Below are positions 10,483 to 27,687 of a stretch of 58,854 nucleotides of DNA, one piece after another. The first letter of the stretch is position 1; each line of letters begins with the position of its first letter. This stretch comes from Alicyclobacillus sp. SP_1 (GTDB taxonomy: Bacteria > Bacillota > Bacilli > Alicyclobacillales > Alicyclobacillaceae): assembly GCF_024706985.1 (NCBI RefSeq), contig NZ_JAMCCX010000019.1:1-58854 (forward strand). Reading direction: 5' to 3'. The notes beneath the pieces were generated by a model. It was given only the letters and a program-made list of their open reading frames with translations, was not told where the DNA came from and made no database searches. Both the position numbers and the translations under genes were made by a program.

Positions 10483-11004
10483 TCAACCCTCATTTTCGTC
10501 CATTCGCTGCTTTAATTCTTCAATTTGATGAATATGTCTCAGCTCATGAAGAGGAATGGATTCCATCCACTGCCCTGTACTCAACGGACCAAAAACCGGG
10601 TGAGGATATGGTGGAGAAGTTACCGACAACAGAGAGGTATCCGTAATCCCTGTAAGAACGGTAACCGTTCGATGACGCCTTTCATTGAGTAAAGAAATGA
10701 GGCTGTCGTAGGTCCACATCCGGTTAGCAGGCTCGAGACCACTAGGAGCCTGTACTTTTGTAGAACGGTCAGGAATTAATTGCTGTAGGGGAAGATCCCG
10801 CTGTTTAAATTCGGGAGACTGAGCCAAGCTCAAAGACAATAGTGGCAGAACCGAATCCTCCACTTTACAGATGTGTTCCACAACCTGTGCGATACTCCAA
10901 GATGAATCATCTGCTTTCCAATTCAACTGTTGTTCACTTAATCCTTGAATCTCGCGCAGTAGCTTTTCTCTAATACTTTCATATTGGCTCAATGTCTGTA
11001 GCAC
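10483..11004 (-). CDS. DinB-family metal-binding protein
   Basis: This 173-residue protein is of the DinB/YfiT four-helix fold. The start is probably the GTG at 11004, because AAGGTGG lies six bases upstream; an ATG at 11022 is the alternative. Features are WSIAQVVEHICKVEDSVLPL in the first helices and HELRHIHQIEEL near the C-terminus; the His residues form the usual metal site. Family members include bacillithiol or mycothiol S-transferases, but many have no known substrate. Confidence 0.75.
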   Translation of the reverse strand: MLQTLSQYESIREKLLREIQGLSEQQLNWKADDSSWSIAQVVEHICKVEDSVLPLLSLSLAQSPEFKQRDLPLQQLIPDRSTKVQAPSGLEPANRMWTYDSLISLLNERRHRTVTVLTGITDTSLLSVTSPPYPHPVFGPLSTGQWMESIPLHELRHIHQIEELKQRMDENEG

Positions 11005-11258
11005 ATGACATCCACCTTCCATTGCGCTCGTCAGACCCGCACTCGCACAAACATACGTACTGCAATCCATCATATCACATTCATGACATGACGTTTTTAT
11101 TTTCCACCGAGTCCTGACATCTCCCCGTTGCACCGCACCGGCGTACGCATGGAACTCGCAAAAGTGGAGATGATGACCTACAGGGAACACACCGTGAGTT
11201 CTAGTCGCCAAAATAATACACATTTCCGGCGAAGACCACAAAGATGGAGGTCATTGCT

Positions 11259-13436: not shown

Positions 13437-13742
13437 CTATTCGACATCTCCATCCCAGGCCAGCATTCCCCCTGAGAGATTGTGAATTTTTTGGTATCCT
13501 GCACTGGCCAAAAATTCACACGCTTTCATACTGCGACCGCCGCTCCGACACACGATGGCAGTTTCCACATCTGGCTTGATTTCTTGGAAACGTGCGGCGA
13601 GCTCTCCCAGAGGAATCAATTTGGCACCAGGGATGTGACCTGATGAAAATTCTTCAGGTTGACGAACATCAATAATTTGAATGTTGTGTCCCTGCTTCAT
13701 TTGCACCTGCAAATCTGTCGAAACCCACTGTGGAATCTCCAT
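13437..13742 (-). CDS. Single-domain rhodanese
   Basis: This 101-residue cytoplasmic sulfurtransferase has the CH2A motif IIDVRQPEEFSSGHIPGA and the active-site loop CRSGGRS with the persulfide-carrying Cys near residue 65. It likely moves sulfane sulfur between thiols. It lies 75 bases downstream of a second, membrane-anchored rhodanese and near the CstR-type repressor, pointing to persulfide handling. Confidence 0.9.
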   Translation of the reverse strand: MEIPQWVSTDLQVQMKQGHNIQIIDVRQPEEFSSGHIPGAKLIPLGELAARFQEIKPDVETAIVCRSGGRSMKACEFLASAGYQKIHNLSGGMLAWDGDVE

Positions 13743-13817: not shown

Positions 13818-14195
13818 CTATTTTCGAACGGGTCCATGCCAAGCAGACATACCACCATTCAAATTATACACGTTCAAACCTGCTTTCTTCGCTTTCTTTG
13901 CAGCCATCATGCTTCTCGTGCCGCTTCGGCAGACAAAGACTATTTCTTTATCCTTCGAAAATTCTCCGAGTTTCGATGACAAGGTCCCGAGCGGAATATT
14001 CTTGGCCTTGACAATATGTCCACCTTTAAACTCAGAAGGCTCTCGCACATCCACAATCTCCAACGCTTGACCTCCAGCCTTCATCTTTTCTTGAAGGTCC
14101 GCTCCAGTGATTTTGCGAATACCACGCCCTCCAATCTTGTTCCACACAAAGTAAACAAGCAACGCTGCAACGATGACAAGCCATAGCCACTGCAT
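13818..14195 (-). CDS. Membrane-anchored rhodanese (YqhL-like)
   Basis: This 125-residue protein has an N-terminal membrane helix (MQWLWLVIVAALLVYFVW) and a rhodanese domain with EIVDVREPSEFKGGHI and the active-site loop CRSGTRS. I chose the ATG at 14195, preceded by GGTGGAAAG; the frame is open ten codons further. It is divergent from the cstR-like gene. The domain faces the cytoplasm if the helix is a simple N-out anchor, as in YqhL-type proteins. Confidence 0.88.
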   Translation of the reverse strand: MQWLWLVIVAALLVYFVWNKIGGRGIRKITGADLQEKMKAGGQALEIVDVREPSEFKGGHIVKAKNIPLGTLSSKLGEFSKDKEIVFVCRSGTRSMMAAKKAKKAGLNVYNLNGGMSAWHGPVRK

Positions 14196-14216
14196 ACTTT
14201 CCACCACCCTTCCACA

Positions 14217-14258
14217 TTGACACATCCTCGAACAGCGCTACAATACCCTTAACGGTAT
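14217..14258 (+). promoter_or_regulatory. cstR promoter with overlapping ATACCC-N4-GGTAT operator
   Basis: TTGACA at 14217-14222 and TACAAT at 14239-14244 are spaced by 16 bases. The 16-bp element ATACCCTTAACGGTAT at 14243-14258 overlaps the -10 box. It is the same palindrome found at 15128-15143 and 23161-23176, with one mismatch. Its position would block RNA polymerase, so autorepression by the CstR-type protein encoded 30 bases downstream is the natural reading. Confidence 0.75.
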
Positions 14259-14288: not shown

Positions 14289-14549
14289 ATGCAATATAAT
14301 GACAAAATGATACATCGACTAAAGCGGATTGAGGGCCAGGTGCGCGGCGTGATGGCCATGATGGACAACGAACGGGACTGTAAAGATGTTGTCACCCAAT
14401 TGTCCGCCATTCGCAGCGCAGTTGACCAGACCATCGCAACGATTGTCGTCGAAAATCTCGAAATGTGCCTACGTCAAGACATACAAGGAGAGTTAGATTC
14501 CCACGAAACCGTCAAACAAGCGATGGAACTGTTGCTGAAAAGTCGTTGA
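14289..14549 (+). CDS. cstR: CstR-type persulfide-sensing repressor (CsoR/DUF156 family)
   Basis: This 86-residue all-helical repressor of the CsoR/RcnR family starts after TAAGGAGAG. Two cysteines are present: C31 in ERDCKDV and a second in ENLEMCL near residue 59. Copper-sensing CsoR carries a His in the E-H-x-x-x-C motif; here that position is Asn (ENLEMC). The Cys pair without the metal-binding His is the hallmark of CstR, which senses persulfides by forming a di- or trisulfide. Neighbouring rhodaneses and three matching operators in the window support this. Target promoters inferred: its own, the HesB-like gene and the flavoprotein operon. Confidence 0.88.
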   Translation: MQYNDKMIHRLKRIEGQVRGVMAMMDNERDCKDVVTQLSAIRSAVDQTIATIVVENLEMCLRQDIQGELDSHETVKQAMELLLKSR

Positions 14550-14622: not shown

Positions 14623-14826
14623 TCACGTAAACCGTGGACGTCCACCGACTGCATTTGCGGTCTTTCCACTCGAACCACTTCCTCCGCCATTCCAGCGTCC
14701 CAAAAAGTCCTGTTTCACGTGACTGCTCTCGCAACTTGGACATTTCACGGAGTCTCTTTCCTCAAATCGAACAAATTCAGCAAAGGATTGACCGCAAGTC
14801 GTACAGATGAAGTCAATTCTCGGCAT
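14623..14826 (-). CDS. FmdB-like zinc-ribbon protein
   Basis: This 67-residue protein has CTTCG and CPSCES knuckles (C-x2-C ... C-x2-C) in the first 35 residues and a Gly/Ser-rich tail, as in the FmdB/CxxC_CXXC_SSSS family of small regulatory zinc ribbons. Its ATG directly follows the stop codon of the HesB-like gene, so it is in the same operon. The exact role is unknown. Confidence 0.75.
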   Translation of the reverse strand: MPRIDFICTTCGQSFAEFVRFEERDSVKCPSCESSHVKQDFLGRWNGGGSGSSGKTANAVGGRPRFT

Positions 14827-15114
14827 TTAACAGCTACCTCCATGCAGAGAGCGAACTACGACACGTTCACCCATCCAAGATTTCATTGTCTCTACGCGTG
14901 CATTTTGAATGTATTTTTGGTGAATCTTCGCATAAACAAACCGAATACCCTCGACGTCTACCGTTTCATCCCCTTCGCGAATCGACTCATCCAGAGTCCA
15001 TCGAATGCTTGGTCCACCTCAACCTGCCTCTAATTTAAATCGTATAAAGCGCTTTTTACGCTTCTCAAGAGAGGTGCGCAGTTGTTCGGCGGCCGCTGAA
15101 GACACTTGAATCAC
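14827..15114 (-). CDS. HesB/IscA-like protein with an in-frame TGA, probable selenoprotein
   Basis: Starting at GTG 15114 (GGAGGTGA seven bases upstream), the minus strand reads through one TGA at 15021-15019 to TAA at 14827, giving 95 residues. The TGA falls in RFKLEAG-(TGA)-GGPSIRW, exactly where HesB/IscA-like proteins have the first metal- or cluster-binding Cys in GCGGPS or GCSGPS. The sequence after it (TLDESIREGDETVDVEGIRF, VYAKIHQKY) continues the family fold without a frame change, and a Cys lies in the C-terminal GGSC. A HesB-like selenoprotein family is known in bacteria. A SECIS-like hairpin follows the TGA. The alternative is a nonsense-mutated gene, but the rest of the frame is clean, the ribosome binding site and promoter are strong, and the downstream gene is intact. 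Confidence 0.75.
14984..15021 (-). promoter_or_regulatory. Candidate bacterial SECIS element after the TGA codon
   Basis: Twenty-five bases after the TGA, GACTC (14998-14994) and GAGTC (14988-14984) form a perfect 5-bp stem with the loop TGGAT. Three further weaker pairs can form below a G-G mismatch. Bacterial SECIS hairpins are expected inside the coding sequence with an apical loop about 16-37 bases after the TGA and a G in the first two loop positions; this one fits both. Confidence 0.6.
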
Positions 15115-15127
15115 TTGCTTCACCTCC

Positions 15128-15178
15128 ATACCCATTGGGGTATATCAGGAGTCTAACCAAACTGCGGGCCTCTGTCAA
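15128..15178 (-). promoter_or_regulatory. Promoter of the HesB-like operon with perfect CstR-type operator
   Basis: On the minus strand, TTGACA (15178-15173) and TAGACT (15155-15150) are spaced by 17 bases. ATACCCCAATGGGTAT (15143-15128) follows six bases after the -10 box. Its two 6-bp arms, ATACCC and GGGTAT, are perfect. The operator sits between promoter and ribosome binding site, suited to repression. Confidence 0.8.
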
Positions 15179-15327
15179 CCGTTCCAACTTCACGATGTTG
15201 TCCAAAGACAGATGCCCACACCACATGCCACTGACATCCTCAGCAAGATAGCTACGGAGAAAGAGAGGCGCAGGGCACAAAATGTGCACCGATTGCGCCC
15301 CTCCGTGAACATCTATCGAAAACTTCT

Positions 15328-15771
15328 TTACGAAAGCAACAGTTTTTTAATGAGCGGTATTTGCCCCCGATGATGTGCAGTGTGCGCAACCATGTAACCG
15401 AGCAACTGTCGTTTGTTGAGTTTACCAATCCCCAGAGTGACCGCTTCTTCTTCCAGTTGCACAACGGTCAATGACGAAAAGACTTGTTCTGCGTTCATCA
15501 ATGCATGGGACCAACCGTCACGAACTTCCTTTAAATCCCACGTATCAGTATGGAATGGCAGTTGTGTGTCGATAGCTTCCGGAGCACCTGACAGGATGGA
15601 GAGAAATCTTGCTTCCACGCGATTGACGTGGTCGAACACGGAAACAATATTGTTGAAATTCGGAAGAGGTTTCTTCATCCACTGCTCATCCGTTAAATCC
15701 TCCACCATGCCATCCATGGTCCTGTGAACCGCGGTTAATAATTCAAAAATATCCTGAACTTCTCGAACCAC
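15328..15771 (-). CDS. DinB-family metal-binding protein
   Basis: This 147-residue four-helix-bundle protein carries His motifs in VFDHVNRVEARFL and MVAHTAHHRGQI, the three His metal ligands of DinB/YfiT proteins. The GTG at 15771 is preferred because GGGAGG lies eight bases upstream; the GTG at 15780 overlaps that site. The family includes thiol S-transferases; no specific substrate can be given. It is unlike the DinB protein at 10483-11004 in sequence. Confidence 0.82.
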   Translation of the reverse strand: MVREVQDIFELLTAVHRTMDGMVEDLTDEQWMKKPLPNFNNIVSVFDHVNRVEARFLSILSGAPEAIDTQLPFHTDTWDLKEVRDGWSHALMNAEQVFSSLTVVQLEEEAVTLGIGKLNKRQLLGYMVAHTAHHRGQIPLIKKLLLS

Positions 15772-15901
15772 TTCATACACCTCCCGCCAGACTCAAATCG
15801 GCTGAAAATCGCAAGTATCGAGCAAAGACTGGCTTCATTATACCCGTCTCGGGAACGGAGATTCAACGCATCCAGAATGTGTGGGGCTACTTCACAAAAC
15901 G

Positions 15902-18901
15902 TTATCCCTTTTCTCCCACTTCTTTACGCATCCCTTGGGAGGCCTCAGGAACTTGATAGGCATCCGGATGAGGCTTCAGTACTCGAAGCATCCAGTAGGG
16001 TCGAAATGTGCCGTCAGGGCCAGGAGCAGGGCGAGTCAGTTTGAGCCAATTTTCAAAGGCAGCATGCGCCTTAGCGGTATCCACTTGAATTTCCCCATAG
16101 TGCCGGCCAGATTCAACGCGCTCGATATGAACGCGTTGGTGCCAACACATCATGCCGCTAATCGGATCTGGCTGAACAGGAAAAATTATGTTCTGATGCA
16201 CACCACCGTCCGACCACCAAACACGACTCGAATCCGGGTCTGAACTTTCCCAGGGCGTAGGTCCGTGAATCTGTTGCATACTCCACATCCCTTCGGATGA
16301 CCGCCCAATTTTGACCAAGGAAGAACTCCACCGGTCACTTCCCGTAGTTTCGTGTAGACGCCAACGCCCAAGATGATGAGAACACGCGATGACACCGGGC
16401 TTGATGCCTTCCGTCACCCAGACTTTATCAACAAGTGAGCCGATCTCGGTTGTAATGCGAACTTCATCCCCAGTCTTGACACCCAGGCGTTGTGCGTCTT
16501 TGGGGTGCACCCAGACAGGATTAGTGTGTGCGATCTCATGGAGCCACTTTGCTCCGTTCGTACGCGTGTGAATTAACATCGGCAGACGAAACGTTGGGAG
16601 CAGCATGTATTCGCCATCTTCTTGGTGAATCGTACTCGGATGCACCTGTGTAACAATGTGAACCATTTCTTCCCGTTCTTTTGCATTCCGCGGGTAAATT
16701 GGAATGGCATATTCTGGCCACGACCAATCTCGAAGAGTCGTCGAGAAGAATTCCAACAGTCCAGAAGGAGTAGGAAATCCCTTCACTGGCTTTCCATCGA
16801 CGACTATTCCCGCTCGAAATTGCCCTTGGGCATTCCGAAACGGTCCTGGGTACGGCGCATGATTCGCAGAATGTACTGGCTTATCCACCCAAACTCCCGA
16901 CTCTTGACCAGAAAGCGTTCGACCGTCGGACGGCTCCGGAACCAAAACTGCCTCTGCCAATACCTTGTCTTCCACCGGGCGGCGATAGACAGAGTAGACA
17001 TCTTTCGTAATTTCAAATGCAGCATACCGCTGCATATATTCCATCGGTGTCATGTTTTCTTTCGCCGCAGCCTCCGGTACACCTGGTACCGCATTTTCGA
17101 AAATCCATTGATAGTATTCATAGACCGTGATCTTCTGGCCCGGTCGGTACGGAGATTCAAAATGCTGGCGAATTCCGAGGCTACCATCGGGATCGATCCG
17201 CCAAGACAATTCAATCCAGAATTCATTTTCCTCCCACACTTCGCCTGGGTTCGCGTCCCTCGTATCGCGAATCGCCTCTCCGCGACGCTCCTTGGAAACG
17301 CGGAGTACGGGTTGCCGAAAGCCGATCCACTGCGATGCATGCGTTTCATACGAGTGCAGGTCGTGACGTTCCGTGGCCAAACCCATTGGCAGTACGTAAT
17401 CCGAGAATTGAGATGTCTCTGACCACACTGGCGAAAGTGTGACATGACAGCCGACTCGGTCCGGTTCTTGAAACATTTCGATCCACGAAAATCCATCAGG
17501 GAACGTCCAGACCGGATTCATCACTCGCGTGAAATACACTTCCAGGCGCTTATTTCGTTGCTTCAAAATGTGCGGGAGACAAAAACTCATTTCGAAAAAG
17601 GACAGTGGGAATTCCCGTGGGAAATGATTCTCGTTCCAAACCCGAATGGGGGCTGGAGTAGTGTTCCGAGTTGGAATAAATTTAACCCAAGCGTTCGGTA
17701 TCATGCTTCCCGGTTCTCCCACGGCTCCCATCAAGACATTGAGAAACATCAAACTCCGAGTGATCATCCAGCCCCCACGATGTCCAGCCGCAGCATTGCG
17801 CCAAATGTTGCTCGCAAAGGCACTACCAGCTTTCGCAATCTCGTCCGCCACCTCGTAGACCGTGGCCGCAGGAACGCCGGATTCAGCCTCCGCCCAGTCC
17901 GCCGTGTAGTGCCCGTAAATCTGCTGGAGAACGGCAACGAAATCATCGAATGTCTGAGACTCCGGTACATGATGAAGAAATCCTCGACGATGTAAGTCCG
18001 CTAGGTAAGCGCGATCGGCCAAAAATTCCTTCCAATTGACCCAATCTCGAACAAATTGGCGATTAAAGCGTTCCGTTTGAATCAGTTGATTCGCGATGGC
18101 GAGCAACAAAGCGGTTTCTGTTCCTGGCCAAGGGGATATCCAAATATCTGCTTTCGAGGCCGTATTGGACAGTCGCGTGTCAATGACGGCTACTTTCGTC
18201 CCATTTTGCTGCGCTTCGATAATGCGTTGCGCATTTGGATTAAAATAGTGTCCAGCCTCTAAATGAGCGCTCATCATCAGAATGAAACGGGCGTTAGCAT
18301 AGTCCGGAGACGGTCTGTCCATGCCCATCCAGAACGCATATCCCGTTCTGCCACCAGAAGAGCATACGTTGGTGTGACTGGACAACCCATCGATTCCCCA
18401 CGCCTTCAGAACGCGCTCGGTGTATTCGTCTTCTCCCGGCCGCCCGACGTGATAGACCACCTCGTCTCGGCGGTCTTCCATAATGCTCTTGCGAATTCTA
18501 GCCGCGATGTCGTCTAGCGCCTCGTCCCAAGAAACTCTCTGCCATTTGCCCTCGCCCCGTTCGCCAACGCGCTTTTGCGGGTAGAGGATACGCTCCGGAT
18601 TGGTCACTTGACTAACCGTAGCCGGTCCCTTCGCGCAATTGCGACCACGACTACCAGGATGAAGCGGATGGCCCTCTAGTTTTTTGATGTCGCCCGTCTC
18701 CTTGTCGATATACGCTAGGAGACCGCAAGCTGCTTCGCAATTGAAACAAACTGTCGGAATCAATTCGTAATGATGGACTTTCTTCTTCGGCCACGCTTTG
18801 GCATCCAGTTCGGTCCAATCATCCCATTTGGCTGGTTCTGGATGCGACCGAAGATGTCCATACCCTTTTGTCAATTGTAGGTGCTGTTCTTCAATGCTCA
18901 T
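15902..18901 (-). CDS. Molybdopterin oxidoreductase, SoeA/PSRLC3-like large subunit
   Basis: This 999-residue catalytic subunit of the DMSO-reductase superfamily has the N-terminal [4Fe-4S] motif CFNCEAACG ... GRNCAKG (about residues 52-90). HTNVCSSGGRTGYAFW follows near residue 180 with the likely Mo-ligand Cys, then MDRPSPDYANARFI and the bis-MGD domains. A C-terminal molybdopterin-dinucleotide-binding domain covers about the last 150 residues (HTNPVWVHPKDAQRLGVKTG). No Tat signal is present, so it acts in the cytoplasm. The closest families by motif are polysulfide-reductase-like complex 3 and SoeA, the cytoplasmic sulfite-oxidising enzyme. With a sulfide-oxidation operon next door I favour sulfite oxidation, but polysulfide or tetrathionate chemistry is not excluded. 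AGGGAGGTC precedes the ATG, and the gene follows its FeS/NrfD partner by 83 bases. Confidence 0.85.
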   Translation of the reverse strand: MSIEEQHLQLTKGYGHLRSHPEPAKWDDWTELDAKAWPKKKVHHYELIPTVCFNCEAACGLLAYIDKETGDIKKLEGHPLHPGSRGRNCAKGPATVSQVTNPERILYPQKRVGERGEGKWQRVSWDEALDDIAARIRKSIMEDRRDEVVYHVGRPGEDEYTERVLKAWGIDGLSSHTNVCSSGGRTGYAFWMGMDRPSPDYANARFILMMSAHLEAGHYFNPNAQRIIEAQQNGTKVAVIDTRLSNTASKADIWISPWPGTETALLLAIANQLIQTERFNRQFVRDWVNWKEFLADRAYLADLHRRGFLHHVPESQTFDDFVAVLQQIYGHYTADWAEAESGVPAATVYEVADEIAKAGSAFASNIWRNAAAGHRGGWMITRSLMFLNVLMGAVGEPGSMIPNAWVKFIPTRNTTPAPIRVWNENHFPREFPLSFFEMSFCLPHILKQRNKRLEVYFTRVMNPVWTFPDGFSWIEMFQEPDRVGCHVTLSPVWSETSQFSDYVLPMGLATERHDLHSYETHASQWIGFRQPVLRVSKERRGEAIRDTRDANPGEVWEENEFWIELSWRIDPDGSLGIRQHFESPYRPGQKITVYEYYQWIFENAVPGVPEAAAKENMTPMEYMQRYAAFEITKDVYSVYRRPVEDKVLAEAVLVPEPSDGRTLSGQESGVWVDKPVHSANHAPYPGPFRNAQGQFRAGIVVDGKPVKGFPTPSGLLEFFSTTLRDWSWPEYAIPIYPRNAKEREEMVHIVTQVHPSTIHQEDGEYMLLPTFRLPMLIHTRTNGAKWLHEIAHTNPVWVHPKDAQRLGVKTGDEVRITTEIGSLVDKVWVTEGIKPGVIACSHHLGRWRLHETTGSDRWSSSLVKIGRSSEGMWSMQQIHGPTPWESSDPDSSRVWWSDGGVHQNIIFPVQPDPISGMMCWHQRVHIERVESGRHYGEIQVDTAKAHAAFENWLKLTRPAPGPDGTFRPYWMLRVLKPHPDAYQVPEASQGMRKEVGEKG

Positions 18902-18984: not shown

Positions 18985-20541
18985 TCAACTCAAGGGCACA
19001 GACTGCCCCGCTTGTACGAAGGCATGTTCGTAAGCGAGCAGCCCAAGCAAAGCAAACGCCGACGCAACGGCAACCGTATCTGTCGAACCAACGAAGAAGG
19101 CAAGTACAAAGGGAATTAACGCTCCAGCGAGCAGTCCAGTCCAAAAATAGCCGCGATACTTACCGTAGATCATCTGGTGAGCGGCTCTCTTTGCGTCCGC
19201 AATCGTATGTGGAATAGCCATCTCACTGAGTATCAATGCAAGGTGCACAGCGACCGCAAGCAACAAGGTCACGTGAACCCAGACAATTGCCACGGTTGGC
19301 AGAGGTAGAACCAGCGCGATGAGCGTGAAAGCCGCAGCACCGGCGACGGTCGCTTGCGACAGCAAGTGAAGCGGAAGCGAGGGATTTTGCCAGAGGTCGC
19401 GACCTTTCGCCTGAGCAAATAGAAACGCCGTATACATCGCTGTGAATCCACCGAGCAACGCACCAGCGACGGCCAGCGGGACATTCCATGCAGTGGTTCC
19501 CATCAGACCTTCAATCAACAGCAGGAGGAGGACAATGCCATATCCGGCAATGATGAACGAGCCACGCACCAGCCAAGAACGCCACTGCGGTCTCGTGAAA
19601 ATGCGAATAAAGCGCATTGGGTGGTCCAAATCGTAAATCAACAAAATTCCGGTTATGCCGAGGAAGATGAGGCCGACAAGAGAGGCCGTAATTTCCCACG
19701 CAGGAGTAAGCGACAGTCCGGCCAAAATGAGGATAGCGAACATTAAAAACGAACCCGCAGCGATGGATTTCGTCCATGTGTACAGGGAAACCTCCCAATG
19801 CCACGGACTGTGATGAGGTACATCGTAAGCCAATCGCGCTGCGGCAACACTGTGTTTCGGATGCGCAGCTTTTTCCGAGTGGACTGGGTACCCTGTTTTC
19901 TCATCTGCGTACATGTGGGAATTTTCATAGACAGCTTTGGACGGATTTAGGGTATAGTCGCTGGCCCCGACATAAAAGACCTTCGGATTTGTTCCTTTTT
20001 CCGGCTTGCGAACGTCTGCTTTGTGGCGAGAGATGAGTTGCAGGACCTCGCTCTCCGGGTCATTTAAATTGCCAACCACAATGGCTTCTACCGGACAAAC
20101 AATGACGCACGCAGGCTCCAGTCCTTGATCGATCCGGTGGGCACAAAAGTTGCACTTTTCGGCACTGTGCACGTTTGGATTAATGTAGATAGCATCGTAA
20201 GGGCAAGCTGCCATGCACGCTTTACAACCAATACATACATCACGGTCAAAATCCACAATACCATCTGGCCGTTTGAACATAGCGGTTACCGGACAGATGG
20301 GAACACACGGTGCGTCATCACATTGATTACAACGAGTAATTTGAAATTGCCGACTGACTTCTGGATAAACGCCTACTTCAACCTGCTTGACATATGTCCG
20401 ATTGACGCTGAGGGGCACATCGTGCTCCATTTTGCAGGCAACCGAACACGCGTGACATCCGATGCAAGTCTCCTGATTGATGACCTTTCCCCAGCGGATG
20501 GGCGTATCCGTCGAACGGGGTACGGACTCTACATCCAGCAT
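18985..20541 (-). CDS. Fusion of four-cluster ferredoxin subunit and NrfD-like membrane anchor
   Basis: This 518-residue protein combines two usual subunits of the complex. Residues 1-~190 contain four Cys motifs for four [4Fe-4S] clusters (CIGCHACSVAC, CNQCDDAPCVPIC, CIGCKACMAACP, CNFCAHRID...CVIVCP). Residues ~245-518 form eight or so membrane helices of the NrfD/DmsC/PsrC type, the quinone-reacting anchor. In most SoeABC, Psr and Dms complexes these are separate genes. The start is the ATG at 20541, seven bases after AGGAGG; the ATG at 20547 is too close. It passes electrons between the molybdenum subunit encoded downstream and the quinone pool. Confidence 0.9.
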   Translation of the reverse strand: MLDVESVPRSTDTPIRWGKVINQETCIGCHACSVACKMEHDVPLSVNRTYVKQVEVGVYPEVSRQFQITRCNQCDDAPCVPICPVTAMFKRPDGIVDFDRDVCIGCKACMAACPYDAIYINPNVHSAEKCNFCAHRIDQGLEPACVIVCPVEAIVVGNLNDPESEVLQLISRHKADVRKPEKGTNPKVFYVGASDYTLNPSKAVYENSHMYADEKTGYPVHSEKAAHPKHSVAAARLAYDVPHHSPWHWEVSLYTWTKSIAAGSFLMFAILILAGLSLTPAWEITASLVGLIFLGITGILLIYDLDHPMRFIRIFTRPQWRSWLVRGSFIIAGYGIVLLLLLIEGLMGTTAWNVPLAVAGALLGGFTAMYTAFLFAQAKGRDLWQNPSLPLHLLSQATVAGAAAFTLIALVLPLPTVAIVWVHVTLLLAVAVHLALILSEMAIPHTIADAKRAAHQMIYGKYRGYFWTGLLAGALIPFVLAFFVGSTDTVAVASAFALLGLLAYEHAFVQAGQSVPLS

Positions 20542-20554
20542 CGTCATTCCTCCT

Positions 20555-20628: not shown

Positions 20629-21519
20629 TCACACTTTTGTCGAAAACAATACTTGCAGGAGGGACTTGACCAAATATTTCGGATAACGTTCTGGACGCTC
20701 TACAATTGACAGCTTTCGATGTATCTGAAAACCTTGAACAGGAATATGGACTAACTGCCCCTGACGACATTCCTCCGCAACAGTCAGACGCGATAAAAAT
20801 GCGAGACCAAGCCCAGCCGCAATCGCCGATTTGATGGCTTGATTGCTACCAAGTTCCATCGTGATGGTGACATGCGAGAGAAGGTCGTGCTCTTCCAATG
20901 CATGCTGAGTCACTTGACGGGTCCCTGACCCTTCCTCACGAATGAGCAAAGGTTGACCGAGCAACTCAGATAATGTGATAAAGGGATGACCAGCAAGTTC
21001 ATGTTGTGGAGAGGCTACCAAAATGAGTTCGTCATCTCGCCATGGCGTCACCTGAAAGTCCACGGTGGCGTCGACCATTCCTTCAATAAGGGCGACGTCA
21101 ATGCGATGCCGAGCTAAATCTTCCAGTATATCGCTAGTATTGGAAATTCGCATCCGAATTTCCGCCTGTGGATACTGCTGCCGAACCGCACCTAAAATTT
21201 TCGGCAAAACGGTTTCGCCAATGGAGAGGGTTGCCCCAACCGCCATTCCCCCGCCCTCCTGACGAATCCTTAGCAATTCTTGCTTGGCCTGTGCTGCACA
21301 CGACAAAATATCGCACGAGAACGGGTAGAGCGCCTGTCCAAGCGCAGTCAATCGAAGTCCGGAGGCACTTCTCTCAAACAGTAGTCCCCCGTACTCATCT
21401 TCGAGCGATTGCAAATGACGACTGGCGGTAGACTGTGTCATATGTAGGACTTGCGATGCTTTGGTCACACTACCATACTCCACCGCCGTCCGAAACACTT
21501 CAAAACTCTCTATGTGCAT
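20629..21519 (-). CDS. LysR-family transcriptional regulator
   Basis: This 296-residue regulator has an N-terminal winged helix-turn-helix (FEVFRTAVEYGSVTKASQVL, then QSTASRHLQSLE) and a substrate-binding domain from about residue 90 (GATLSIGETVLPKILGAVRQ). The ATG at 21519 is preceded by AAAAGGGGC. It lies between the flavoprotein operon and the FeS/NrfD-molybdoenzyme genes on the same strand, so a role in controlling the latter, like CysB/CbbR-type sensors of sulfur or carbon status, is a reasonable inference. Confidence 0.88.
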   Translation of the reverse strand: MHIESFEVFRTAVEYGSVTKASQVLHMTQSTASRHLQSLEDEYGGLLFERSASGLRLTALGQALYPFSCDILSCAAQAKQELLRIRQEGGGMAVGATLSIGETVLPKILGAVRQQYPQAEIRMRISNTSDILEDLARHRIDVALIEGMVDATVDFQVTPWRDDELILVASPQHELAGHPFITLSELLGQPLLIREEGSGTRQVTQHALEEHDLLSHVTITMELGSNQAIKSAIAAGLGLAFLSRLTVAEECRQGQLVHIPVQGFQIHRKLSIVERPERYPKYLVKSLLQVLFSTKV

Positions 21520-21561
21520 GAAGGCGCCCCTTTTACAACGCAAGCTCTTTGTACAGAAAAA

Positions 21562-22554: not shown

Positions 22555-23139
22555 TCAATCATGCCACATAAACGGCTTTCCGAGAACTTCACTCGCAATT
22601 TGAATGCCGACAAAAGCACCTTGGCCTGCAGACACCACCGATTGACTCGGAACATTGGCCAACAGCCCAGCCACATAGAGTCTGTCGACCTCTGTGCGAC
22701 CGTCATATTGAACGCCATCGAGAAAGCGTATCTTCCCGCTTGGCACGTGCTCATTGACGCGCACCTCAAAACCTAACTCCGCTAACAAAGCATACCCCAG
22801 ATTGACCGCGATCACCAAATACTTGCACCGCCACTCGAGTGCCTCTCCGCCAACTGAAACCCCGTGCACAGAAAAATACTCGCCATGGACATTTTCGAAT
22901 CTCGTCACTTTGGCAAACGCCAATTCGGCTCCTTCAGACTGTGCTTGCCGACGTGCGGACGCAATCCACTCTTCCCCAGATATGCCGCCTAAAACTCCAG
23001 GAAAATTACGGATTTCTTTAACTTTCACGAGCTGTGATTCGCTTTCATCCACCACTACAGTTCTTAAATTTGCTTTACCAGTAAACATCGCAACACTTAG
23101 ACCAGCCACGCCGCCACCAACAACCAATACATCATACAT
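22555..23139 (-). CDS. Thioredoxin-reductase-like FAD flavoprotein lacking the CxxC
   Basis: This 194-residue protein begins MYDVLVVGGGVAGLSVAMFT, the FAD-binding Rossmann motif. It ends with LYVAGLLANVPSQSVVSAGQGAFVGIQIAS, the second FAD-binding segment of TrxB-like enzymes. The NADPH domain and its CxxC redox pair are absent, so it is a minimal FAD-only form, about 110 residues shorter than TrxB. The ATG at 23139 has AGGTGGAG upstream; the frame is open 24 codons further, but that part overlaps the operator. As first gene of a CstR-controlled operon it may act on persulfides or related thiols. Confidence 0.78.
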   Translation of the reverse strand: MYDVLVVGGGVAGLSVAMFTGKANLRTVVVDESESQLVKVKEIRNFPGVLGGISGEEWIASARRQAQSEGAELAFAKVTRFENVHGEYFSVHGVSVGGEALEWRCKYLVIAVNLGYALLAELGFEVRVNEHVPSGKIRFLDGVQYDGRTEVDRLYVAGLLANVPSQSVVSAGQGAFVGIQIASEVLGKPFMWHD

Positions 23140-23160
23140 CGCCAAACTCCACCTTCCTAA

Positions 23161-23212
23161 ATACCCTATTGGGTATATTGCAGTTATACTATACGCGACT
23201 ATTGAAGGCAAC
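23161..23212 (-). promoter_or_regulatory. Promoter of the flavoprotein operon with perfect CstR-type operator
   Basis: On the minus strand TTGCCT (23212-23207) and TATAAC (23188-23183) form a promoter with an 18-base spacer. The 16-bp palindrome ATACCCAATAGGGTAT (23176-23161) starts six bases after the -10 box, the same geometry as at the HesB-like gene. Confidence 0.78.
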
Positions 23213-23302: not shown

Positions 23303-24715
23303 TCAGACCGTCGTGGCATGACCAAGCTTCAACCACTCTTCGTATCCGCCAAGGAGATTCTGAACATTAGAGACCCCATGCGCTTGGAGAACACTTGCAG
23401 CTATGGCTGACCGTCCACCAGTTCGGCATTGTACGACAATCGGTTTGTCCGTAGGTATCTCCCTGACTCGGTCCGGCAATTGACCGAGCATGACGTGCGT
23501 CGCCTGCGGAATGTGCCCTTCCTCCCACTCGGAGTGATTTCGCACATCGAGCAGAAAGACTTCGCCACGCTCGATAGGGCCAGCAATGTCTTCGGCACGA
23601 ACTTCCCCATAGCTTTCAACAGACACATCCGGATGATTCAACACGGACACATCCATCGTCTCGACCAAGCCATCCAACCCAATCGACTGCAAGTCTTTGC
23701 GAACCGCACCCGCTTGCTGTTCATCACACAGAACGTAAATGGGGCGATCATAATCGAGCAACCAACCCGCCCAATTGACAAACGACTTATTGAGCGTAAT
23801 ATTGAGCGTTCCAACGGCATGTTTTTCAGCGAATTGATGGGCGCTGCGAACGTCGACCACTTGGCCCTCCTTCAACCAGGCCGCCAGTGTCTCGGAAGAG
23901 GCCGACACATGCTTGGAGGCTGCCACTTCATCAAGCAAGGTTGGCCCCTCGTTGTTCAACTTCTTCATCATAGCAAAATACCGAGGAGGTTCCGGCTGTC
24001 CTGCCAGCAGCGCCGCGACAAACGCATCTTCATCCGGCTCATTGAGCGCCCAATTGACCATCTTCTCATATCCAACCGTAGACGACGGAATCGCTCCAAG
24101 CGCTTTGCCGCAAGCACTTCCCGCCCCGTGGGCTGGCCACACTTGAAGGAAATCCGGCAGTTCTCGAAACCGCTTCAAAGAGTGATACATTTTTCTCGCC
24201 AGTTCATCCGAAGTTCCTTTTTGTCCGGCAGCTTTTTCCAACAAATCGGGTCGGCCAATGTCTCCTACGAATACAAAGTCGCCCGAAAAAATGCCCATGG
24301 GTTTCGGTGCCTTTGCACCACCATCCGTGACAAGAAAGGAAATACTCTCCGGCGTATGCCCAGGTGTATGCAACACTTGAATATGGATGTTTCCAATCGA
24401 AAAAGTATCTCCATCATGCAGCGGTTGATGGGCATAGGATGCAGCATATGGGTAGCTCCATTCACTACCACCTTCCGCAGACAAGTAAAGTGTGGCACCC
24501 GTTCGACTGGCTAACTCTCTTGATCCGCTCAAAAAATCGGCGTGAATGTGTGTCTCCGTGACGCCGACGATACGCAGTCCTTCGGCTTTCGCTACCGAAA
24601 TGTACTTTTCTACATCTCGAGAAGGATCGACCACCAGTGCTACGTTGCATGCTTGACAACCAACGAGATAGGAAGCGTGTGCCAACTTGTCATCGTAGAA
24701 ATATTTTAGCAGCAT
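23303..24715 (-). CDS. Persulfide dioxygenase-rhodanese fusion (CstB-like)
   Basis: This 470-residue enzyme oxidises persulfide to sulfite and transfers sulfur. Residues 1-~250 are a metallo-beta-lactamase domain of the ETHE1 type (THIHADFLSG, HTPGHTPES, GDFVFVGDIGRPDL provide the Fe ligands). Residues ~255-360 are a rhodanese-like domain without a standard active loop, and ~370-470 a second rhodanese with CRTGGRS. This MBL-rhodanese architecture is that of staphylococcal CstB. The ATG at 24715 is placed by GGAGGTTCTAGT; the frame runs 12 codons further. It is the last gene of the operon with DUF1641 and SQR. Confidence 0.9.
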   Translation of the reverse strand: MLLKYFYDDKLAHASYLVGCQACNVALVVDPSRDVEKYISVAKAEGLRIVGVTETHIHADFLSGSRELASRTGATLYLSAEGGSEWSYPYAASYAHQPLHDGDTFSIGNIHIQVLHTPGHTPESISFLVTDGGAKAPKPMGIFSGDFVFVGDIGRPDLLEKAAGQKGTSDELARKMYHSLKRFRELPDFLQVWPAHGAGSACGKALGAIPSSTVGYEKMVNWALNEPDEDAFVAALLAGQPEPPRYFAMMKKLNNEGPTLLDEVAASKHVSASSETLAAWLKEGQVVDVRSAHQFAEKHAVGTLNITLNKSFVNWAGWLLDYDRPIYVLCDEQQAGAVRKDLQSIGLDGLVETMDVSVLNHPDVSVESYGEVRAEDIAGPIERGEVFLLDVRNHSEWEEGHIPQATHVMLGQLPDRVREIPTDKPIVVQCRTGGRSAIAASVLQAHGVSNVQNLLGGYEEWLKLGHATTV

Positions 24716-24773
24716 ACTAGAACCTCCATTTCGGTGCATTCGATTCGACACTATGGGGCTATCATTCAGGCCA

Positions 24774-25426: not shown

Positions 25427-26617
25427 TTACATCAAGCCCTTGAGCATTCCATCCCAGTAAATGATGGGTAACATTTCTTTTTTGAGGAGGTACATACTAA
25501 AGCGCTCCTGCCCTTGGTCAAAAGGAAACGTTTCATCCGGCTCCAAGTTATAGTCAAACTCCGCCAGTATAAGACTTCCGTATCCCGTCACAAGTGGGCA
25601 GGACGTATAGCCGTCATACTCATTGACCATCGGTTCAGACCGCATTAAGCTGAGCAAATTGTGAACTAAGGCAGGCGCCTGTTTCCGAATGGCCGCTCCA
25701 GTTTTCGAGGTGGGTAGGCTGCTCGAATCGCCGATGCCAAACACATTAGAAAACGCAGTGTGTTGAAGCGTGAACTTATCGACAGACACCCACCCGTCTG
25801 CGTTGGCCAACGGACTCTTTTTGATAAAGTCCGGGGCACTCATTGGGGGCGTGACGTGGATCATGTCATATTGGACCGTGTGCTGCTCTTTTGTATTCAG
25901 GTCTTCAAAGGTTGCTTGCTTCTTCTCTCCGTCGACAGCGACTAAATTATGCTTATAGTGAGTTTCAATCCCTTTACGTTCCACGACTTTGTTGAGCGCA
26001 TCCGCATATTTCTTGACGGAGAAAATAGACGGACCGCCGTTATAAAACATCACCTTCGACTTGCTTCGCACTCCCGACTTGCGAAAATAGTCATCGGCGA
26101 GATACATAATCTTTTGCGGTGCTCCACCGCACTTAATCGGGGTGCTCGGCTGTGTGAAAATTGCAGTTCCCCCAGTAAAGTTGCGAATGTTTTCCCAAGT
26201 GGAGTTGACGTAGTCATACGAATAATTACTACAGACGCCATTTTTACCGATGGTCTCTTTCAAACCTTTCACTTTGTCCCAATCGATTTGAATCCCTGCA
26301 GCGACTACCAAAAAATCGTAGGAAATGGTCGATCCCCCTGCCGTGACCACGAGATTTTCCTTTGGGTTGAACTCTAGCACAGCATCCTTAATCCACACCG
26401 CACCCTCAGGGATAACGCTTGCTTCTTCGCGTTCGGTTACCTCTCGCTTTGCGGCGCCACCACCGACCAACGTCCAAAGTGGCTGATAGTAATGCTTTGT
26501 GGCCGGTTCAACAATCGCCACCTGCCCAGAAAGATGCCGAGCTTCGCGCAACAATCTTGAAGCAACCGTGATTCCGCCACTACCTCCGCCAACAACGACG
26601 ACTCGATAATGCATCAT
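25427..26617 (-). CDS. sqr: Sulfide:quinone oxidoreductase
   Basis: This 396-residue FAD enzyme oxidises sulfide at the membrane surface and reduces quinone. It has the N-terminal Rossmann motif VVVVGGGSGGITVASRL, the catalytic region STPIKCGGAPQKIMYLADDY, and GIGDSSSLPTSKTGAA for FAD. Cys residues in GVCSNY, IKCGGAP and TSCPLVTGYG are candidates for the redox-active Cys set; the pattern matches the mitochondrial-like (type II) SQR group. It heads the SQR-DUF1641-dioxygenase operon, with a 23-codon small gene and an NreC-type box upstream. Confidence 0.9.
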   Translation of the reverse strand: MMHYRVVVVGGGSGGITVASRLLREARHLSGQVAIVEPATKHYYQPLWTLVGGGAAKREVTEREEASVIPEGAVWIKDAVLEFNPKENLVVTAGGSTISYDFLVVAAGIQIDWDKVKGLKETIGKNGVCSNYSYDYVNSTWENIRNFTGGTAIFTQPSTPIKCGGAPQKIMYLADDYFRKSGVRSKSKVMFYNGGPSIFSVKKYADALNKVVERKGIETHYKHNLVAVDGEKKQATFEDLNTKEQHTVQYDMIHVTPPMSAPDFIKKSPLANADGWVSVDKFTLQHTAFSNVFGIGDSSSLPTSKTGAAIRKQAPALVHNLLSLMRSEPMVNEYDGYTSCPLVTGYGSLILAEFDYNLEPDETFPFDQGQERFSMYLLKKEMLPIIYWDGMLKGLM

Positions 26618-26793: not shown

Positions 26794-27573
26794 TTACAGA
26801 TGCAGAGCCTCGGCGTTGAGAACCAACATGTAAATGGCCACCACAAAGACCATCCCAGAAAAAATGTAGTTGAGCATCTTTCGCTTTGTACTCAGACGAG
26901 TTGCCAGAATGGTGCCGAGCACTCCACCGACGATTCCGCCGGCAACGTATTCTAAGACAATCCACCAGTTGACAAGGCCGGACAGACTGTAGTTTACTGC
27001 CGTTGTCAGACCGAACGCTCCTACGGAAAACAAAGACGTACCGACGGCTTCAATCATGGGCATTCCTGTCGCAAGAATGAGTCCAGGGACGATGAGAAAT
27101 CCGCCGCCGATTCCAAAAAAGCCAGACGTGAAGCCCACCAAGAATCCAATGAGCAGGACCAACCAGAGTCGCAACTTCGCCGGAGCCATTAGGTCTTCTG
27201 ACTTCTTCTTTGGGAAAGCCATCCGAACGGCAATGACAATCATTAAAATCGCAAAGAGGAACAAAATCTCTTTGTCCGGAACGAGTTTTCCTAAATCGGA
27301 ACCCAAATAGGCACCTAACACGCCCGGAAGAGCAAAGAGTACAGAAATTTTCCACTTGACATGCTTCTGCCGAGCATGCGGGATAAGATTGAGAAAAGCA
27401 TTCGCTGCCACTGCGGCGGCTGTGCTACCGATGACCACATGAGGGTCATGGATGCCCACCACGTACAACAAGAGCGGCACTGCTAAAATAGAGCCTCCTC
27501 CGCCCAGCAACCCGAGTGCAAATCCAACGGCCCCACCTGATGCAATCGCTAAAACAACTTGTAGTGACGTCAT
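26794..27573 (-). CDS. TauE/SafE-family sulfite/organosulfonate exporter
   Basis: This 259-residue protein has about eight membrane helices and the two glycine-rich family repeats (GFALGLLGGGGSILAVPLL and GFTSGFFGIGGGFLIVPGL). The family exports sulfite, sulfonates or related anions. AAAGGAGGAG precedes the ATG at 27573; the upstream continuation of the frame crosses the regulatory region and is not likely coding. It probably removes sulfite produced by the persulfide dioxygenase. The gene is divergent from the NreB-like kinase gene. Confidence 0.88.
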   Translation of the reverse strand: MTSLQVVLAIASGGAVGFALGLLGGGGSILAVPLLLYVVGIHDPHVVIGSTAAAVAANAFLNLIPHARQKHVKWKISVLFALPGVLGAYLGSDLGKLVPDKEILFLFAILMIVIAVRMAFPKKKSEDLMAPAKLRLWLVLLIGFLVGFTSGFFGIGGGFLIVPGLILATGMPMIEAVGTSLFSVGAFGLTTAVNYSLSGLVNWWIVLEYVAGGIVGGVLGTILATRLSTKRKMLNYIFSGMVFVVAIYMLVLNAEALHL

Positions 27574-27626
27574 ATCGTCTCCTCCTTTCACAGGAAACAG
27601 TGTAAGATGGATAAGGAATCGGTGAT

Positions 27627-27644
27627 ATCGGGGAAACCCCTGAT
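27627..27644. promoter_or_regulatory. 18-bp NreC-type box between tauE and nreB
   Basis: ATCGGGGAAACCCCTGAT differs at two positions from the perfect palindrome at 26725-26742. It lies 53 bases upstream of the tauE start and 43 bases upstream of the nreB start, so one regulator could act on both genes. Confidence 0.65.
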
Positions 27645-27687
27645 TCTTGCGCAAAAATCCAACTTTCTTCGACATGGAGGCGAGTCA

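Follow-up and report, generated by a model that had tools for sequence, protein, structure and literature searches.

A divergent HesB-like selenoprotein gene of Alicyclobacillus sp. SP_1 appears to have joined a CstR-type, persulfide-responsive regulon

Is a short reading frame that is broken by one stop codon the gene of a selenoprotein or the remnant of an ordinary one, and what would such a protein do among genes of sulfide oxidation? Both questions are raised by a stretch of 58,854 nucleotides from Alicyclobacillus sp. SP_1 (contig NZ_JAMCCX010000019.1; hereafter the window), in which a minus-strand frame runs from a GTG at 15114 to a TAA at 14829–14827, with a TGA at 15021–15019 as its sole interruption. 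An earlier note on this DNA had read the frame as a HesB/IscA-like selenoprotein gene equipped with a ribosome binding site, a promoter and an operator, and followed directly by an intact gene. All these landmarks were recovered. Nothing else interrupts the frame (14827–15114, minus strand), which encodes 95 amino acids with selenocysteine (Sec) at residue 32 and a sole cysteine as final residue 95. A perfect ribosome binding site, GGAGGTG, lies at 15127–15121, 6 nt before the GTG, and a sigma-70-type promoter, TTGACA-17-TAGACT, at 15150–15178 (10 of 12 matches), both on the minus strand; the same 900-bp stretch holds two further, weaker promoter-like sites (0.6 expected). The operator is the palindrome ATACC-N6-GGTAT at 15128–15143. 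The neighbour, whose ATG at 14826 abuts the hesB stop, encodes an FmdB-type zinc-ribbon protein (14623–14826, minus strand; TIGR02605, 42.5 bits, cut-off 31.3).

The protein is a distant relative of the A-type carriers. The Fe-S_biosyn model PF01521 matched it with 22.3 bits (E 1.6e-4), under the Pfam cut-off of 26.3, and this match together with an IscA fold points to an IscA/HesB domain. Among NCBIfam models the best was NF038090 (IscA_HesB_Se), at 36 bits against a cut-off of 85, so that the protein is not filed under that family. When models were run on the members of our alignment A1, 13 of 13 matched NF038090 (E 0.001 or better) and five of 13 matched TIGR01911, the window protein not being among the latter; it is 27–41% identical to the 12 other rows. 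The predicted structure (pLDDT 86.8, with the last three residues under 50) has an A-type carrier fold: IscA (1r94) was the top solved match (Z 14.2, rmsd 2.0, 94 residues), SufA (2d2a) and DsrR (2k4z) followed with Z 12.7 and 12.5, and from rank 11 downward Z was 3.4 or less. The fold is shared with IscA, SufA and ErpA, but Sec replaces the first cysteine and the C-terminal CxC is missing; where a canonical A-type carrier has three ligand cysteines, one followed by a CxC near the end, only Sec32 and Cys95 are present. DsrR of Allochromatium vinosum, which is IscA-like and has a role in sulfur oxidation, is not known to have the ligand cysteines; unlike the window protein it has no Sec, and its operon differs from that of the window hesB.

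As the earlier note had stated, HesB-like selenoproteins exist in bacteria: 11 are listed in PMC1794560, and PMC13188914 assigns them to TIGR01911 with the motif UxGP. The one of Methanococcus maripaludis was recognized through mutagenesis and 75Se labelling, and its function is described as ‘not clear’ (PMC11097638). The window gene has the same make-up: its product has the IscA/HesB domain and carries Sec in place of the first conserved cysteine, within U-x-G-P, a hairpin lies just downstream, and selA, selB, selC and selD are present in the genome. It differs in its low score with NF038090, its single terminal cysteine and its CstR-type operator. In its sequence it is thus of the HesB-like selenoprotein kind, but a divergent member.

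A rival reading is a decaying pseudogene, in which TGA has arisen by mutation from a cysteine codon. The divergence of the window gene might speak for that: the end branch (0.87) is one of the two longest in our tree, identity to the other A1 rows is low, and a protein search found no match to it in G001, a genome of the same genus. The relatives speak against it. When 61 genomes were searched with the protein, 18 had matches, and 11 of these (the host included, twice) have one in-frame TGA, and every TGA-type row aligns its TGA to query column 32, the column of the first conserved cysteine. The order is represented by 55 genomes, and TGA-type HesB is found in 11 of them, the host and ten relatives. 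The context of the window Sec, G-U-G-G-P, contains the UxGP motif, and its column is invariant in homologues. In the relatives the frame is open but for this one UGA, which is conserved, and random stops or frameshifts are not seen. In the window gene itself the frame is open on both sides of the UGA, and promoter, ribosome binding site and operator are in place.

The machinery for Sec insertion, which the earlier note had proposed to look for in the same genome, is complete. In the host assembly (99.98% complete), selA (544 bits), selB (375 bits), selD (392 bits) and tRNA-Sec (64 bits; anticodon tca = UCA) all scored above curated cut-offs, and the host selD carries an in-frame UGA of its own, in G-U-GCK. 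Within the order, 29 of 55 genomes have a selA above cut-off, including 11 of the 11 with TGA-type HesB (Fisher p 3.5e-4). The nearest relative with cysteine at the Sec column, G028, has no selA match in its genome, and G023, which has a more distant Cys homologue, has no selA above cut-off; in this sample, therefore, Sec goes with the machinery.

The hairpin behind the UGA gives further evidence. A stem of 5 bp with the loop TGGAT had been described as starting 25 bases after the TGA; stem and loop are as described, and the distance holds for the loop (25 nt) but not for the stem, which starts after 20 nt. This SECIS core (14984–14998, minus strand) has the stem GACUC/GAGUC and the loop UGGAU. 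Its case rests on comparative evidence; the fold of the single sequence does not differ significantly from shuffles (z 0.33; an equally good fold in 126 of 200). An Rfam scan of 14700–15300 returned four sub-threshold chance hits (E up to 10), none of them a SECIS. Genes for the comparison were collected with a DNA pattern fixed at the amino-acid level (GUGGP ... L, GAN, Glu), which gave at least 115 named loci; against the A1 profile, 112 places in 110 of these loci exceeded 25 bits, and the other 5 loci are chance hits. The named loci, the window and 17 further genes from our genome set (including the second copy of the host) make up 129 Sec genes; L056, a duplicate of G050, was dropped from this codon comparison.

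With the codon frequencies of long frames from each gene's own locus as a rough yardstick, the hairpin codons of the 129 genes are locked: the Ala codon is GCT in 89 of 89 (20.3 expected), the Leu codon CTG in 126 of 126 (28.4 expected) and the Glu codon GAG in 111 of 124 (42.3 expected). Control columns near the UGA are closer to expectation (GGT 22/125, expected 29.9; GGT 42/126, expected 30.1; CCT 29/123, expected 34.2). Pair 8.2–11.3 is C-G in 115 genes and U-A in 14, with no mismatch, and all five stem pairs form in 117 of the 129. In the 87 sequences of alignment A3, which leaves about one third of the named loci outside, 93.7% of the cells of a six-pair helix are paired (shuffled, 87.0 ± 0.6), double changes number 33 (8.7 ± 2.4) and covariation reaches 0.298 (0.175 ± 0.011, and at most 0.151 in slid versions); two of the five shuffle measures, pairs changed on both sides and further pair types, did not exceed the shuffles in A3. 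RNAalifold predicted the inner five pairs of A3 unaided, and L205 and L207, which lie outside A3, have odd loop codons and are counted within the 129, both form them. The sixth, outermost pair is unformed in 23 of the 87 sequences, the window among them. Fifteen motif-picked Cys homologues lack the locked codons (none of their 8 Ala codons is GCT, and the Leu column has CTG in 3 of 15); the Cys gene of G028 retains part of them (GTT-CTG-GAG-GAG, compared with GCT-CTG-GAT-GAG).

Judged by these comparisons, the hairpin downstream of the window UGA is a real SECIS. It bears on the pseudogene as well: the element has been kept, with an A-U pair where most near kin have G.U. A chance stop or a pseudogene was rejected on the basis of the TGA-type relatives, the shared column and the codon locking, and with the full Sec machinery in the host we regard a decaying gene as very improbable. 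The selenoprotein reading of the earlier note is upheld by the machinery, the UGA column and the locked and covarying SECIS, and the window gene very probably encodes a real selenium-containing protein, its UGA (15019–15021, minus strand) being decoded as Sec. In a crude read-through scan of the window, 26 TGA candidates were listed, of which by eye only that at 15021 resembles a family protein. Ordinary annotation would probably call this gene a pseudogene or omit it; lying far below the curated selenoprotein cut-off, it illustrates how such genes can escape annotation.

In the free tree the window HesB stands away from its order, without firm support. A tree constrained to group it with the order is not rejected (AU p 0.55) and is slightly higher in likelihood than the freely searched one; the divergence of the window gene could mean relaxed constraint. 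The Cys form of G028 and the Sec form of G011 share a well-supported fork (100/85). The host has a second HesB-like selenoprotein, G000:C10:25707–25961 (L208:7987–8292, L035), with the context G-U-SGP and a canonical SECIS, GGCTCTGGATGAGTCC; this copy has no operator and groups with other Sec genes of the order.

How is the window gene controlled? The site at 15128–15143, ATACCCCAATGGGTAT, is a perfect candidate CstR-type operator between the −10 element and the ribosome binding site. Two more perfect palindromes are present in the window, at 14243–14258 between divergent cstR-like and rhodanese genes, and at 23161–23176 just upstream of a thioredoxin-reductase-like gene. The 3.4-Mb genome has five perfect ATACC-N6-GGTAT sites, these three included; the fourth (contig C94) lies 63 nt upstream of a second pair of rhodanese and CstB-like genes, and the fifth (C61), inside a sensor-kinase-like frame, is probably due to chance. 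As the pattern was derived from the sites at 15128 and 14243, only the other three sites test it. The reversed pattern, used as a control, has no site in the host genome, and the palindrome with N5 spacing has one.

The candidate repressor, encoded at 14289–14549 on the plus strand, is a CstR-like protein (PF02583) with two cysteines. Its best solved match is 7mq1/7mq2, with which both cysteines and the ENLxxC stretch are conserved; these records are named CsoR, and we take 7mq1 to be CstR of Streptococcus pneumoniae. We found no open-access paper tying 7MQ1 to CstR. The two conserved cysteines are those of a CstR-type protein, and the place of the His ligand of CsoR is presumably occupied by an Asn, so that the copper-ligand His would be absent.

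On the minus strand, the window encodes two rhodaneses (PF00581), at 13437–13742 and 13818–14225, the latter with a hydrophobic N-terminus that by eye looks membrane-anchoring; a short thioredoxin-reductase-like FAD protein (22555–23154; TIGR01292, 67.7 bits, below cut-off); a CstB-like persulfide dioxygenase-rhodanese fusion (23303–24751) with an MBL fold and two rhodanese stretches, which matches 3tp9 with 579 bits and 3r2u, presumably Staphylococcus aureus CstB, with 403; a type III sulfide:quinone oxidoreductase (SQR)-like protein, identified by sequence match and free of in-frame UGA (25427–26617); and a TauE/SafE-type exporter (26794–27675; PF01925, 181 bits).

Other genes of the neighbourhood were noted in passing. 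Upstream of the hesB region lie a molybdopterin oxidoreductase nearest to thiosulfate reductase PhsA (15902–18901) and an Fe-S protein that by eye is fused to a membrane part (18985–20547). A LysR-type regulator (20629–21543) matches the ‘selenium metabolism-associated LysR’ model with 188 bits (cut-off 250) and YeiE with 198 (cut-off 480), and two proteins of the DinB superfamily (thiol-S-transferase-like) are encoded at 15328–15780 and 10483–11241. The SQR-like protein matches ‘type III sulfide quinone reductase, selenoprotein subtype’ (252 bits, cut-off 525) and, without a UGA of its own, is another possible link between Sec and sulfide. A 44% homologue of the thioredoxin-reductase-like protein occurs near HesB in G131.

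The gene set recalls characterized systems. The CstR regulon of S. aureus comprises tauE, cstA, cstB and sqr (PMC5480029), and together with the YrkD cluster of Bacillus licheniformis (PMC9918477) it provides a model for the release of the repressor by persulfide. A CstR-type repressor, rhodanese, a CstB-type dioxygenase, SQR and a TauE exporter are common to these systems and the window. The accessible text of PMC5480029 and PMC9918477 names no selenoprotein, whereas in the window the Sec hesB carries its own operator. Titles and abstract beginnings in the open-access literature yielded no paper joining HesB-like selenoproteins to CstR or sulfane sulfur. HesB-like selenoproteins as such are already established; it is their placement in a CstR regulon that is new.

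It might be objected that the selenoprotein is real and its link to CstR a neighbourhood accident of this strain. Operators were counted in 19 HesB upstreams, those of the window, of 17 relatives (the Cys form included) and of the second host copy; this count came after the promoters of the relatives found first had been viewed. Eight upstreams have a perfect operator and three a one-mismatch operator, where mononucleotide shuffles expect 0 and 0.2, and the 18 Sec genes alone give the same eight and three (expected 0 and 0.1); the remaining 8 of 19 have no operator or a weak one with at least 3 mismatches. Of six previously unviewed loci of families f12, f14 and f36, three had a perfect operator and one, that of G221, had a one-mismatch operator at a distance of 130 nt; the motif is not enriched in the G221 genome. 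A perfect operator stands directly at the HesB upstream in four families of the class (f1, f2, f14, f36), also where the gene order differs, which argues against an accident.

The neighbourhoods agree with this. Of the 17 relative loci, 12 have a gene of cst type (CstR, rhodanese, CstB, SQR or TauE) within about 8 kb, and 8 have a CstR-like gene; among 20 control regions, which come from 14 of these 17 genomes, the numbers are 1 and 0 (p 5.7e-5 for the cst-type genes). Perfect operators number 25 in 244 kb of relative loci versus none in 322 kb of control sequence; five of the 25 are in G003 and G024, where the motif is common and hence not specific. The genomes G001 and G221 have no more copies of the motif than of its reversed control. 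TauE, SQR, DUF1641, CstB and HesB are co-directional in this order in G041, as are HesB, rhodanese and CstR in G050. Five of the 17 loci, including those of the Cys-form genome and its two genus-mates, have neither cst-type neighbours nor perfect operators, and no FmdB-type gene was detected in the 17. Weaker TGA-type matches were kept outside these context counts (G193, G182, G211, G321, G250, G192, G203, G083, G222, G242, G073, G173, G100, G122 and the second one in G066). In genus g3, the palindrome ATACC-N6-GGTAT occurs 114 times in G003 and 41 times in G024, and among the places listed it is often paired 53 bp apart, which suggests a repeat element made up of operator-like palindromes.

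Further afield the link thins out. The named genomes are mostly Bacillota and Thermodesulfobacteriota by their tree labels. Among 109 named upstreams, two have a perfect and two a one-mismatch operator (expected 0.06 and 0.6), and all four loci (L087, L129, L051, L130) are from Bacillota. CstR-like genes were found in six of the at least 115 named loci and rhodanese in six, one of each being L056, which equals the relative G050; three of the six CstR-like hits are only 34–36% identical. The commonest neighbour of the Sec genes is rhodanese (16 loci, 6 named), followed by ABC ATPases and macrodomains, named by eye, with 13 loci each. By these counts the sulfur link is not general across Sec genes. 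The rarity of operator and CstR-like genes among named loci is what an accident would lead one to expect; it also places the CstR link mainly in the host's part of Bacillota. Given the perfect operators in four families, we consider a mere accident unlikely. The control by a persulfide-type repressor that the earlier note had suggested is supported by the CstR-like sequence, the operator set and the conserved neighbourhoods, and a HesB-like selenoprotein appears, from this genomic evidence, to have joined a CstR-type regulon responding to per- or polysulfide.

By analogy with characterized CstR and YrkD, rising sulfane sulfur would modify the two cysteines of the CstR-like repressor. The repressor would then leave its operators at hesB, at the cstR/rhodanese and thioredoxin-reductase-like promoters and at the second rhodanese-CstB pair. 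The UGA would be read by SelB and tRNA-Sec, guided by the SECIS 21–35 nt downstream, and the IscA-fold product, with Sec32 at the first ligand position and Cys95 as its sole cysteine, would act in the response to sulfide or persulfide. We hold it highly probable that the protein contains Sec, is under control of CstR type and takes part in that response, no single chemistry being implied. The UGA, the SECIS, the machinery, the operator, the repressor type and the sulfide-oxidation cluster are legible in the DNA itself; the chemistry is a matter of more tentative readings.

The likeliest of these, which we put at slightly under an even chance, is that persulfide sulfur is taken up or reduced by the selenol, which would have Cys95 or a rhodanese for a partner. 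Second comes a real selenoprotein that carries Fe-S clusters, Sec replacing one cluster ligand, be it in housekeeping or in guarding or carrying clusters under sulfide stress; we give this perhaps one chance in three. It draws on the close fit to IscA, the Sec at the first ligand position and a cysteine within the last 12 residues in 116 of 128 Sec members, as well as on ties of cst to Fe-S chemistry: in S. aureus, CstA, encoded in the cst operon, is able to remove the persulfide from SufS, and cst is also induced by nitroxyl, which may disturb Fe-S clusters (PMC5480029). Against it stand the single cysteine of the window protein and a separate ordinary Cys carrier in the host genome (C28:89845), owing to which the window HesB is not the only A-type carrier. 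Moreover, 11 of the 128 Sec members have no cysteine after Sec or in the preceding 30 residues, so that a three-thiolate cluster site cannot be general; in these, Sec may, as far as their sequences tell, be the only chalcogenol. A reactive selenol is therefore favoured as the common denominator, and persulfide chemistry is ranked above Fe-S carriage. The Cys-less genes are those of L047, L063, L071, L085, L089, L102 (two), L121, L123, L130 and L131.

The persulfide reading can be carried one step further: in this class of Bacillota the HesB-like selenoprotein might be a dedicated selenol handler of sulfane sulfur in CstR-controlled sulfide detoxification, accepting or reducing persulfide sulfur between rhodanese, SQR and the CstB dioxygenase, which we advance as a possibility somewhat short of even odds. 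If true, a selenoprotein family that has been on record since at least 2006 would gain a physiological role, and members that have Sec and no cysteine would be accounted for. The operator evidence from several families puts one HesB lineage in a persulfide-responsive regulon and makes its function directly testable, with a single operator, repressor and gene in one bacterium as the test system.
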